Assembly: GCF_029392895.1 (NCBI RefSeq)
Contig: NZ_CP114200.1
Location: forward strand, 1,207,501 to 1,271,500
Reading direction: 5' to 3'
DNA: 64,000 nt
Origin: Streptomyces sp. 71268
GTDB taxonomy: Bacteria > Actinomycetota > Actinomycetes > Streptomycetales > Streptomycetaceae
Below the pieces are notes generated by a model. The model searched no databases. It had not been told where the DNA came from and saw only the letters and a list, made by a program, of their open reading frames with translations. This document shows positions 58,279-61,979 of this stretch, piece after piece. Each line of letters opens with the position of its first letter. Position 1 is the first letter of the stretch. A program made the translations under genes and the position numbers.

Positions 58279-59262
58279 ATGGAGCAGAGGCATCTCGGCC
58301 GTACGGGCCTGCGCGTATCCCGGATCGGGCTCGGCACGCTGACCTGGGGCCGGGACACCGACGAGCACGACGCGGCGGACCAGCTCAAGACTTTCTGGGA
58401 CGCGGGCGGCACGCTCGTGGACACCGCCGACGTGTACGCCGACGGCAGCGCCGAGTACCTGCTCGGGCAGTTGCTCGACGGCCTGGTGCCGCGCCGCGAC
58501 CTGCTCATCGCGACCAAGGCGGGCAGCGTGCCCGACCCGGACCGCCGCTTCGACGGCTCCCGTGGCCACCTGCTGGCCGCCCTCGACGCCTCCCTCGAAC
58601 GCCTGGGGACCGACTACGTGGACCTGTGGCAGATCCACGCGTACGACGCGTCGACCCCGCTTGAGGAGACCCTGCAGGCCCTGGACATCGCGGTCAGCAG
58701 CGGCCGGGCGCGCTACGCGGGGGTGTCCAACTTCTGCGGCTGGCAGCTCGCGAAGGCGGCCACCTGGCAGCTCGCGTCGGCGGGCCCACGGACCCGGCTC
58801 GCCAGCACGCAGATGGAGTACTCGCTGCTCCAGCGCGGCATCGAGCGCGAGGTGCTGCCCGCCGCCCTGGACCTCGGCATCGGGCTGCTGCCGTCCTCGC
58901 CGCTGGGCCGGGGCGTGCTGACGGGCAAGTACCGGCACGCGACGCCGGCGGACTCGCGGGGCGCGTCGGAGCACATGGCGCCGTTCGTCGCCCCGTACCT
59001 GGACGACGCGGCCAGCCGGATCGTCGACGCGGTCTCGATCGCCGCCGACGGGCTGGCCGCCACCGCGCTGCAGGTGGCGCTCGCCTGGGTGCGGGACCGC
59101 CCTGGAGTGGCCGCCCCGATCGTCGGCGCGCGCACCGCGCAGCAGCTCAGGGCGGCTTTGTCAGTGGAGGCGCTTACGCTTCCAGACGAGATTTGCCAGG
59201 CGCTGGACGACGTCTCAGCGCCCGTGCACCGCTATCCCGATCACGACTGGAGCACGCTGTGA
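58279..59262 (+). CDS. Aldo/keto reductase
   Basis: This protein of 327 residues has the AKR barrel with the catalytic Asp and Tyr in DTADVYADGSAEYLLG, Lys in LLIATKAGS and His in DLWQIHAYD. It reduces aldehydes or ketones with NADPH. I choose ATG 58279 (MEQRHLGRTGLRV), with 58267 (MSALMEQ) as the alternative. It ends in a GTGA overlap with the next gene, so they are coupled. Confidence 0.92.
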   Translation: MEQRHLGRTGLRVSRIGLGTLTWGRDTDEHDAADQLKTFWDAGGTLVDTADVYADGSAEYLLGQLLDGLVPRRDLLIATKAGSVPDPDRRFDGSRGHLLAALDASLERLGTDYVDLWQIHAYDASTPLEETLQALDIAVSSGRARYAGVSNFCGWQLAKAATWQLASAGPRTRLASTQMEYSLLQRGIEREVLPAALDLGIGLLPSSPLGRGVLTGKYRHATPADSRGASEHMAPFVAPYLDDAASRIVDAVSIAADGLAATALQVALAWVRDRPGVAAPIVGARTAQQLRAALSVEALTLPDEICQALDDVSAPVHRYPDHDWSTL

Positions 59263-61979
59263 GTTCCGACCGCCCCGCGGGCGAGGCCGCCTCCGCCACC
59301 GCGGGAGACCCCGCACCGCGCGACGAGGACGCCACCGCTCCGGACCCCTCGCCGGACACCCCCGAGGACCCGGCGTCCGCGAACCCGGCCCCCGCGGTGG
59401 CCCCGCGCGACCAGGCCGAGCGGCCCGGTGAGCCCGAAGCGGACGAGGCGGCGGCCGCCCCGGACGCCGAGGCGGACCAGCGGCCCGCGCCACCGGCCGA
59501 CGCGGCGCGCGAGGCCGGCGCGACGGACGAGGCGGACCCGGTGGGCGAGGCGGGCCCGGCAGGCGAGGCCGACCCTGCGCGCGAGACGGACCCGGCGGGC
59601 GAGGCCGACGCGCGGCCCCGGGATGCGCGCGACGCGGGTTCGGAGGCGGCCCCCGCCGCCGAGTCCCCGGCCGGCGAGCGGGCTACGGTGCCGGGCGCGG
59701 CCGGTGCCGGTGGGGCCACCGGTGGCGGGAAGCGGTCGGCCGCGGCCGAGGCGCTGGCCGCCGCGGTGCGCGCCGTCGAGCGGGGCGAGGCCGACGCCGC
59801 CTCGTTCTTCACCACGCGAGGCAGGTCGGGGGCGGCCCGACCCGATGCCGCGCGCTCGGCCTCCCCCGGCCGAGCCGCGCCGACGCCGGGCGGCCCGCAG
59901 GCAGCGGCCCCGCACGGCACCGGGCCCACGGGCCCGGTCGACACCGGCCCCGCGACCCGGTTCGGCGGCGCCGACTCGGGCGGAGCGCCTCTTTCCGGGC
60001 CGGCCCCGACCGCCACGGCCGGGGCGCCCGGAGCCGGGCCCGGAGCCGGTCCGTCCGGTGCCGGCTCGCCGGCCGGTGGTGGCGGTGGGGCGCGGATGCC
60101 GGCGGCGGGCCCCGGGGTCGGGCCGGCGGAGCTGGACCAGATCCGCCAGGTGCTGACCGCCGGCGGCGCGCCGCCACACCTCGCCGAGCAGGTCGTACGG
60201 GCCCTGGGCGAGGGGGCCGCTGCGGTCCTGCGGGACGACCCGTGGCAGTTGCTCGCTGTCCCGGGGGTGCGCCCCGAGCAGGCGGACGGCTTCGCGCGGG
60301 CCCTGCTCGGCCCGGACTGCGGCCCCGGCGACGAGCGCCGCTCCCGGGCACTGGTCACCTGGCTGCTGGAGCGGGCCGCCCTCGAAGGCCACACGGCCCG
60401 CGAGTCGGCCACGCTGCGCGACGCGCTCGCCCAGCACGCCGTGCCGGACCCGGACGAGGCCCTGCGCGACGCCGTGGCGGAGGGCGTGGTGCTGGTCTTC
60501 CAGGACGCCCTGGAGACCCCGGGGGCGGCCCCGGCGGCCGGGGACGAGGAGGCCGAGCAGCCCGTCCGGGTGCTGCTGGGCCTCGACCGGTACGCACTGG
60601 CCGAGGAGAGCCTGGCCGACGGCCTGGCCCGGGTGATCAACACCTTCGAACCGGACGCGCCCGCCGACGCCGCGACCGGCACCGAGCCCGAGACCGAGAC
60701 CGAGCCCGAGACCGAGACCGAGACCGAGACCGAGACCGACGAGGCTATGGAGACCGACGCGGAGCCCGAGGCGCGAGCGGCTGGCCCGGCGCCCGACTGG
60801 GAGGCGCTCGCCGGCGCCGCCCCCTCGCCGTCGGCCGCCGAACTGGTCAGGGCCGTCGCGGGGCACGGACTGGTGACGCACAGCGGGGGTGAGAGCGCCC
60901 GTGCCGAGGCCGTGGCCGTTGTCGCCGCCGCGCACGCGCGCGGCCTGCGCGCCTACGCCGCCGCGCACACGGACGACGGCCGCCGGCGGCTCGGCGCGGC
61001 GCTGGCGGACAGCGGCCTGCCCGCCGCGCTGGCGGTCACGGTCGCCGGACTGCTGACCGGGGCCGAGGGGCCGGGCCGGGACGCGGACGGCGCCTTCCGG
61101 CTCGACCTGCTCGCCGTGCTCGACGCTCCGCAGCTCGACGTGGAGGCCGCCGCGGCGCTGGTCGAGTCGCTGCCGGACGGCGTGCGGCTGGTGCTCAGCG
61201 GCGATCCGGGGGTCCTGTGGTCGGCGGGCGCCGGCCGGGTCTTCGCCGATCTGGTGGCCGCCCGCGCCTGCCCGCAGGTGGTCTCCCGCACACCGGACCC
61301 CGGCCCGATCGGCGAGTTGGTCTCCGGCATCGGCATCGGCGAGCTGACGCAGGTGGAGGCGCCCGGCAAGGAGGTGGTGATCGTTCCCGTGCGGGACGCG
61401 GGCGACGCCGTGCACCGCACCGTGCAGTTGGTCGCGGACTCGGTGCCACGGGCGATCGGCGTACCGGTACCCGACATCCAGGTCATCACCGTCGGCCACG
61501 GCGGCGCGGTCGGTACCCGGGCGCTCAACGCCGCCCTCAAGGAGCGTCTCAACCCCGGCCCCGGCCGGTTCGGCGGCTTCGACCCCGGCGACCGGGTCGC
61601 GTACGCGGTGGCCCCGGGGCGCACCGTGACGGGCACGGTGACCGCGGCCGAGCCCGACGGGCTGCGCCTCGACTGTGGGGGCGAGGACGTGCTCGTGCCG
61701 CGGGCCCGGGTCGCCGACGCCCTGCGACCCGGCTGGGCGGTCACGGCGCACCAGGCGGCCGGCCGGCGCTGGCCCGCGACCGTCGTCGTCCTCCCGGGGG
61801 ACGCGGGCCCGCTGCTCACCCGGGCCTGGGTCTACACGGCGTTCAGCCGCGGCGAGCGGCACCTGTCCGTGGTCCACGGCGCGGGCCCGGCCCTGCCGCA
61901 CGCGGTGGCCGAGGTCCCGGCCGCCGAGCGCACGACGCGGTTGCGGGCCCTGCTGCGGGCCCAGAACGCGACGGCCTGA
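59259..61979 (+). CDS. RecD2-like helix-hairpin-helix protein with degenerate ATPase motifs
   Basis: This 906-residue protein starts at GTG 59259. The first 280 residues are Ala/Pro/Glu/Asp-rich. After that comes a RecD2-like N-domain with helix-hairpin-helix character (DDPWQLLAVPGVRPEQADGFARALL). Next is the helicase-like core, where the expected Walker A GGPGTGKT position reads HSGGESARAEA and the Walker B DEAS position reads DAPQ. The remainder tracks RecD2: LVLSGDPGVLWSAGAGRVFADLV, VGTRALNAALKERLNP and AWVYTAFSRGERHLSVV. ATP hydrolysis therefore appears lost. It could be a DNA-binding or structural protein. It is coupled to the aldo/keto reductase. Confidence 0.8.
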   Translation: MSSDRPAGEAASATAGDPAPRDEDATAPDPSPDTPEDPASANPAPAVAPRDQAERPGEPEADEAAAAPDAEADQRPAPPADAAREAGATDEADPVGEAGPAGEADPARETDPAGEADARPRDARDAGSEAAPAAESPAGERATVPGAAGAGGATGGGKRSAAAEALAAAVRAVERGEADAASFFTTRGRSGAARPDAARSASPGRAAPTPGGPQAAAPHGTGPTGPVDTGPATRFGGADSGGAPLSGPAPTATAGAPGAGPGAGPSGAGSPAGGGGGARMPAAGPGVGPAELDQIRQVLTAGGAPPHLAEQVVRALGEGAAAVLRDDPWQLLAVPGVRPEQADGFARALLGPDCGPGDERRSRALVTWLLERAALEGHTARESATLRDALAQHAVPDPDEALRDAVAEGVVLVFQDALETPGAAPAAGDEEAEQPVRVLLGLDRYALAEESLADGLARVINTFEPDAPADAATGTEPETETEPETETETETETDEAMETDAEPEARAAGPAPDWEALAGAAPSPSAAELVRAVAGHGLVTHSGGESARAEAVAVVAAAHARGLRAYAAAHTDDGRRRLGAALADSGLPAALAVTVAGLLTGAEGPGRDADGAFRLDLLAVLDAPQLDVEAAAALVESLPDGVRLVLSGDPGVLWSAGAGRVFADLVAARACPQVVSRTPDPGPIGELVSGIGIGELTQVEAPGKEVVIVPVRDAGDAVHRTVQLVADSVPRAIGVPVPDIQVITVGHGGAVGTRALNAALKERLNPGPGRFGGFDPGDRVAYAVAPGRTVTGTVTAAEPDGLRLDCGGEDVLVPRARVADALRPGWAVTAHQAAGRRWPATVVVLPGDAGPLLTRAWVYTAFSRGERHLSVVHGAGPALPHAVAEVPAAERTTRLRALLRAQNATA
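60681..60740 (+). repeat. Hexanucleotide tract inside the RecD2-like gene
   Basis: Ten tandem 6-base units, mostly ACCGAG with some CCCGAG, encode a Thr-Glu/Pro-Glu repeat in the linker before the core domain. Length changes in whole units would keep the frame. Confidence 0.8.

Follow-up and report, generated by a model that had tools for sequence, protein, structure and literature searches.

A probable RecD2-like pseudohelicase conserved in Streptomyces without its motor motifs

This work concerns a gene in a window of 64,000 nucleotides of DNA (the whole stretch analysed) from Streptomyces sp. 71268 (NZ_CP114200.1, positions 1,207,501 to 1,271,500 of the forward strand). The gene, an open reading frame with a GTG start at 59259..61979 on the forward strand, encodes a protein of 906 amino acids with clear homology to the active helicase family RecD2, in which the catalytic motifs are lost and purifying selection is evident, the combination expected of a pseudohelicase. 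We consider it reasonably probable that this RecD2-fold protein has been kept as an ATP-independent scaffold or docking module acting through its domain 2A. Literature searches on RecD2, RecD-like proteins and pseudohelicases found no publication on the family to which it belongs, here called RecD2b.

Results

Aligned with the genome's own RecD2, the window protein reads HSGGESAR in place of LTGGPGCGKS at Walker A, LAVLDAPQ in place of VVVDEASM at Walker B, GDPGVLWS in place of GDVDQLPS at motif III and SRTP in place of FRQA at motif IV, and neither of the patterns used to recognise RecD2 (GGPGxGK[ST] for Walker A, DE[AT]S for Walker B) is found in it. The former Walker A or motif I (HSGGESARAEA, residues 541-551) lies at 60879..60911, the former Walker B or motif II (LAVLDAPQLD, residues 618-627) at 61110..61139, the motif III region (GDPGVLWSAGAG, residues 648-659), of which the glutamine is gone and GD and the final glycine are kept, at 61200..61235, a degenerate motif V (TAHQAAGRRW, residues 829-838) at 61743..61772 and the motif VI region (RAWVYTAFSR, residues 855-864) at 61821..61850, all on the forward strand, as are the features of the gene given below. 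R864, which we take to be the arginine-finger position, is still there; the motif names used for lost and kept positions likewise follow those of SF1 helicases in general. A first, sequence-only reading of the window had given Walker A as GGESARAEA and Walker B as DAPQ, which the alignment bears out, and had named an intact Walker A/B elsewhere in the protein as the observation that would overturn it; none was found. None of 120 listed homologues of the window protein has a P-loop where Walker A should be, and the idea of a hidden P-loop elsewhere was rejected, P-loop-like strings occurring in three of the 120 and in all three within N-terminal tails. As judged from the alignment, the protein is without the residues for the usual binding and hydrolysis of ATP, and since these are missing, translocation should be impossible.

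The fold, by contrast with the motor, is predicted to persist. The model of the window protein retains the RecD2 fold, its closest structures being those of RecD2, the DNA-bound 3gp8 and 3gpl included, and the predicted model of a shrunken relative, compared by VIA-align, retains it too. An HHH_RecD2 (helix-hairpin-helix, HHH) domain (residues 291-379, 60129..60395) matches PF14490 at 44 bits (cut-off 27), and the RecD2-like order of blocks noticed earlier is confirmed. Pfam matches to UvrD_C_2 and AAA_30 are both sub-threshold, and the NCBIfam RecD2 model (TIGR01448) gives 105 bits against a curated cut-off of 500; profile-profile comparison of the whole family with RecD2 returns a probability of 99.6% over 550 columns.

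The trees place the window protein in a second actinobacterial RecD2-like clade, RecD2b, other families of which keep both Walker motifs. In these intact proteins GGPGTGKS, VDE[ATS]S, GDxxQLPSIG and RQ are all present, and full-length copies score 412-501 bits with the motorless profile versus 269-319 with the RecD2 profile. All 120 listed homologues of one of them (L160) carry a P-loop and, where named by NCBI, are Mycobacteriales or Frankiaceae MAG (metagenome-assembled genome) proteins. Class-wide searches gave matches in 79 of 118 genomes with a profile that detects RecD2 too, and in 161 of 246 with one from which RecD2 rows were left out but which nevertheless detects RecD2. Among 75 family rows hand-picked from fetched loci, both Walker motifs are present in 23, neither in 52 and one alone in none, the motor being lost in 8 of the 15 families whose state was seen. 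Loss of the remaining motor residues is patchy: the motif III glutamine or the finger arginine persists in some of the lost rows, and several of the shrunken rows still have DD at Walker B. Two trees were made without the motif columns, near-duplicate rows having been dropped (13 of 87 from the first, 45 of 87 from the second). In the first (74 rows) every lost row falls on one side of a branch with an SH-aLRT of 99; in the second (42 rows) the lost rows stand together with a bootstrap of 97 and an SH-aLRT of 99, in 96% of bootstrap trees. The split of RecD2b from canonical RecD2 is supported at 100 and 100/100, respectively. Both Walker motifs vanished together, most simply once, and the loss of the motor is old and common to many actinobacteria. 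Family codes (f1, f17 and so on) are labels of the analysis; by protein identity f28 is Motilibacter (99.7%), f31 lies near an Acidothermaceae MAG (79%) and f17 members lie near Nocardiopsis (74% over 293 amino acids) and Actinomadura (62%) proteins. One f17 genome holds a divergent RecD2-like protein with intact motifs (L185, G191:C6:229325-230842) that branches outside the other RecD2 rows.

Within Streptomyces the gene is near-universal (57 of 61 genomes). Sixty of the 61 match the family profile and the former ATPase region is covered in 57, the exceptions being a copy truncated where its contig stops (G008), a broken copy (G010), a genome with RecD2 only (G050, 82% complete) and one with no match (G028). 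Across the bacterial family, matches were found in 79 of 81 genomes and in 17 of 17 genera, and the most divergent genera, one of them with a match of ~84% to Embleya proteins, are likewise without the motifs; the motif loss ascribed to this protein by the sequence-only reading is therefore real, but belongs to the whole bacterial family and not to this copy alone. Six core matches list one or two internal stops; the four that were fetched have a frame that stays open as far as the match reaches C-terminally, and the remaining two are in G095 and G120. All of 80 Streptomyces rows (79 loci and the window) have H541 and G543 at the former Walker A site and D-A at 622-623 at the former Walker B site, and 79 of them have P624.

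Every motorless group has lost 20 positions that canonical RecD2 and intact RecD2b both conserve, including 526 of the Q motif, 548 and 550 of Walker A, 573 of Ia, 596 and 597 of Ib, 624 of II, 678 of IV and 832, 834, 836 and 837 of V. Another 15, which all RecD2b groups down to the shrunken forms conserve, do not reach the threshold in canonical RecD2, where twelve stand at 0-8% and three (373, 725 and 731) at 67-75%. Eleven of the 15 lie in domain 2A (687, 706, 707, 709, 720, 723, 725, 728, 731, 868 and 870), nine of these being nearly absent from canonical RecD2. They include a conserved block (residues 706-731, 61374..61451), in which V706, V707, V709, R720, Q723 and S728 are nearly absent from canonical RecD2 and R731 is common there too, and the RecD2b-specific H868 and S870 on the final strand of 2A (61860..61868).

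Selection was estimated as omega (dN/dS) by a counting method at high GC, so that the values are to be compared among themselves and not read as absolute. Pooled over 73 close Streptomyces pairs, omega is 0.113 for the former II-III region, 0.115 for IV-2A, 0.126 for V-VI, 0.214 for the SH3 region, 0.257 for the HHH part, 0.342 for the former Walker A-Ia region and 0.585 for an acidic linker; for the core compared with S. buecherae (L001) it is 0.191. Neighbouring genes give 0.108 (aldo-keto reductase, AKR; 71 pairs), 0.116 (an LLM-class oxidoreductase; 70) and 0.239 (a downstream gene of unknown function; 73). Most of the core has been kept by purifying selection since the motor was lost.

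With regard to the gene itself, the GTG start at 59259 shares four nucleotides (GTGA) with the stop of the upstream AKR gene. A mechanical list of open reading frames offers an earlier TTG start at 59193; we take 59259 because the family start pattern M/V-S-[ST]-D-R fits there, and the frame and start of the sequence-only reading stand. Codon-position GC is a good fit to the coding frame in the core (0.846/0.559/0.953) and a less clear one in the N-terminal extension (0.865/0.782/0.896). The genome's sole true RecD2 (G000:C1:5719525-5721693, ~4.5 Mb away) scores 843.6 bits in a genome-wide search with the RecD2 model, versus 83.7 for the window protein, and because this separate RecD2 is present in the same genome, the window gene is a paralogue.

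The acidic, repeat-rich N-terminal extension described earlier is genuine; it is of low complexity (residues 1-290, 59259..60128) and varies in length among Streptomyces. It holds a motif conserved in the genus, ALAAAVRAVExGE..SFF (residues 166-184, 59754..59810), which was found in 72 of 79 Streptomyces loci against 3 of 490 in a shuffled control, four of the seven misses beginning close to a contig end. As a family-wide feature the motif was rejected, being clear in genus Streptomyces only with a few weak matches in other genera; it is a possible docking motif. The acidic linker (residues 463-515, 60645..60803), a (TE)n stretch whose omega indicates little constraint, is encoded by an in-frame CCGAGA hexanucleotide repeat (60670-60739, 11.7 copies), the length of which slippage could alter without a frameshift. 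The 2B or SH3-like region (residues 771-820, 61569..61718) is missing, as is the motif Ia stretch, in ten shrunken relatives (L171-L180).

The conserved neighbours are the AKR upstream (58276..59262, forward strand), a divergent LLM-class F420-dependent oxidoreductase (57102..58115, reverse strand) and a convergent gene of unknown function (62121..62798, reverse strand, 225 amino acids), whose product has no Pfam or NCBIfam match above cut-off. The last is the convergent neighbour in 123 of the 138 locus rows that have it (repeats and RecD2 loci included), and in class-wide loci L171-L180, where found, a stretch of only 60-70 residues of its product is recognisable. Beyond it, two genes downstream of the pseudohelicase, lies a gene (63169-63933, reverse strand) for a protein that contains a repeated segment and ends in an LAETG sequence resembling a sorting signal; it has no family match, and from its sequence we take it to be chaplin-like. 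The placement next to metabolic genes proposed earlier is corrected to this extent: on one side is the AKR, on the other the gene of unknown function and then the chaplin-like gene. A same-strand upstream AKR was found at 74 of 79 Streptomyces loci (less than 1.3 kb precedes the gene in the other five), 38 of 43 loci of other Streptomycetaceae (three of the misses despite at least 1.3 kb), 10 of 13 f17 loci, with two more ~3 kb away, and 12 of 12 shrunken or other loci. Among 23 intact loci it was found at eight, and later at five more, the remaining ten being six f18 copies and four short contigs or flanks. No AKR was found beside the six f18 copies (17 kb fetched for two, 12-13 kb for three, a short flank for one), and the five with longer flanks keep, of the conserved neighbours, only a phosphomutase homologue within ~3 kb. 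Intact loci L238-L240 show the order phosphomutase, LLM oxidoreductase, AKR, a gap of ~1 kb, and RecD2b, and this neighbourhood (phosphomutase, LLM, AKR) is present in the window and most loci. Farther off lies a gene for an SCO1664-family protein (52663-53595, reverse strand; TIGR03843, 349.5 bits). Prompted by that match, we presume the S. coelicolor orthologue of the window gene to lie near SCO1669-SCO1673, on which a literature search found nothing. According to PMC4255298, SCO1664 is in every case linked to mshC (SCO1663), a mycothiol gene.

Discussion

The sequence-only reading had proposed a conserved, non-motor descendant of a helicase, to be checked by structure prediction and dN/dS, and the results agree: the 52 rows without both motifs form one clade, omega is 0.11-0.26 outside the linker and the former Walker A-Ia region, and the predicted model keeps the RecD2 fold. 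Because many actinobacteria kept and protected the protein after its engine was lost, it probably has a motor-free job. We infer that the ancestral RecD2b enzyme may have had an extra, ATP-independent role seated in domain 2A (R720, Q723, S728, H868 and S870), and that after motor loss the protein would have served as a scaffold or docking module recognising a conserved protein or nucleic-acid partner by way of its 2A face. Further contacts may come, in Streptomyces, from the HHH domain and from the acidic tail and its short motif. More tentatively, and less likely than not, a helicase with this second function in 2A would have had its motor discarded once and wholesale, with later trimming in several families to ~320-420 residues around the second site.

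Several observations weigh against this account. The case for one loss depends on trees in which the shrunken forms have long branches, and the clade-specific positions rest on 12 canonical RecD2 rows, with 'conserved' meaning the same residue class. The whole core evolves faster than its neighbours: the window compared with 39 listed distant loci gives omega 0.28-0.41 for the core and ~0.10-0.20 for the AKR, which makes the protein constrained, though overall more weakly than the AKR. Last, the gene has been lost within Streptomyces (the G010 copy, L125, is broken and none was found in G028), and because of these losses it is not essential everywhere.

The sequence-only reading had suggested a DNA-end binding or regulatory function. 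A possible but rather unlikely alternative is that the protein binds DNA structures without moving, holding single-stranded DNA, forks or ends through HHH, 2A and 2B so as to mark, protect or load repair proteins, in the manner of Deinococcus radiodurans PriA or RecC. The above-threshold HHH_RecD2 domain and the nearness of the predicted fold to the DNA-bound RecD2 structures are consistent with this, as are the DNA binding retained by the PriA pseudohelicase (PMC4504706) and the gel shift of single-stranded DNA by B. subtilis RecD2 without ATP, at four- to eight-fold lower affinity (PMC12143592). Charge points the other way. The HHH part has a mean net charge of -13.2 in 29 Streptomycetaceae rows and -9.7 in 12 f17 rows, versus -3.9 in 23 intact RecD2b and -7.7 in 12 canonical rows; that of the 1A part is -8.5, -8.4, -4.9 and -0.8, respectively; and whole-core values, linkers included, are -34.8, -27.3, -19.1 and -3.9, with only -5.3 in 11 shrunken or other rows. 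The greater acidity of HHH and 1A in the motorless Streptomycetaceae and f17 rows mildly disfavours tight DNA binding by the old cleft. Moreover, residues of motifs Ia, Ib and V, presumably contacts to single-stranded DNA, are lost, and the ten shrunken forms have no SH3 insert and mostly lack much of the HHH part. DNA binding by the protein may still occur.

Functional partnership with the adjacent AKR, for example in a redox-responsive complex, seems improbable. The upstream AKR is frequent in Streptomyces and in the shrunken or other loci, and its stop overlaps the RecD2b start in the window, as it does in 108 of 171 locus rows counted with repeats, but the six f18 copies have no AKR found beside them and some lineages show a gap of ~1-3 kb; because the whole neighbourhood is conserved, adjacency is weak evidence. 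We find it very unlikely that the protein is a regulatory or decoy subunit for the canonical RecD2 of the same cell. The two co-occur in 8 of 8 Streptomycetaceae, 13 of 13 f17 and 4 of 4 f18 genomes searched, yet canonical RecD2 is above cut-off in only 25 of 46 genomes tested, the other 21 comprising 11 with motorless copies, nine with intact RecD2b and one (f22) with a copy truncated by a contig end. Those 11 (f8, f31, f28, f2, f20 and f6), eight of them 95-100% complete (four Motilibacter-like, 98-100%) and three only 78-87%, weaken the idea, since carriage of a motorless copy with no RecD2 above cut-off suggests that the protein is independent of RecD2. A cryptic NTPase with non-standard residues has little to recommend it: R864 is kept in 0.97 of 29 Streptomycetaceae rows, conservation extends to the former Walker A site (HTGGEAARAEP) and some lost rows retain the motif III glutamine or the acidic pair DD at Walker B, but the P-loop lysine, the DE pair and the glutamines of the Q motif, motif III and motif IV are all missing from the window protein, and the finger arginine falls to 0.67 of 12 f17 rows and 0.36 of 11 shrunken or other rows. 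Simple decay into a pseudogene, of which the broken G010 copy is the one instance and which homologues with normal motifs had been expected to signal (such homologues do occur, though they belong to other families, and most share the neighbourhood), is scarcely credible and is refuted for the family by omega and family-wide conservation.

If a helicase did carry this second, motor-independent function in 2A, R720, Q723, S728, H868 and S870 would form a new conserved site for a ligand or partner, in an unstudied actinobacterial pathway of genome maintenance or cell biology. Living intermediates occur in one neighbourhood (full motor, no motor and trimmed remnant), and because they exist, the non-moving role of a helicase is directly testable.

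Helicase-like domains without motor function are found within repair machines in RecC and AddB, which are stable subunits of helicase-nucleases; we know of no such complex for RecD2b. The closest precedent is D. radiodurans PriA, a helicase homologue retained although reported to be without ATPase and unwinding activity, which binds DNA and contacts DnaB (PMC4504706); it belongs to the PriA family, and its activities were measured, whereas the window protein is known from sequence and model. Relative to RecD2 (an SF1B 5'-3' helicase; TIGR01448; PDB 3e1s, 3gp8 and 3gpl; for background see PMC10804225 and PMC12143592), the window protein lacks Walker A and B, the Q motif, the glutamines of motifs III and IV and the motif V contacts, and adds an acidic tail and residues specific to its own clade. 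It shares that clade, the clade-specific residues and a related neighbourhood with the intact RecD2b proteins of other Actinomycetes, which, unlike it, have both Walker motifs and are annotated as 'AAA family ATPase' or 'exodeoxyribonuclease V alpha subunit'.

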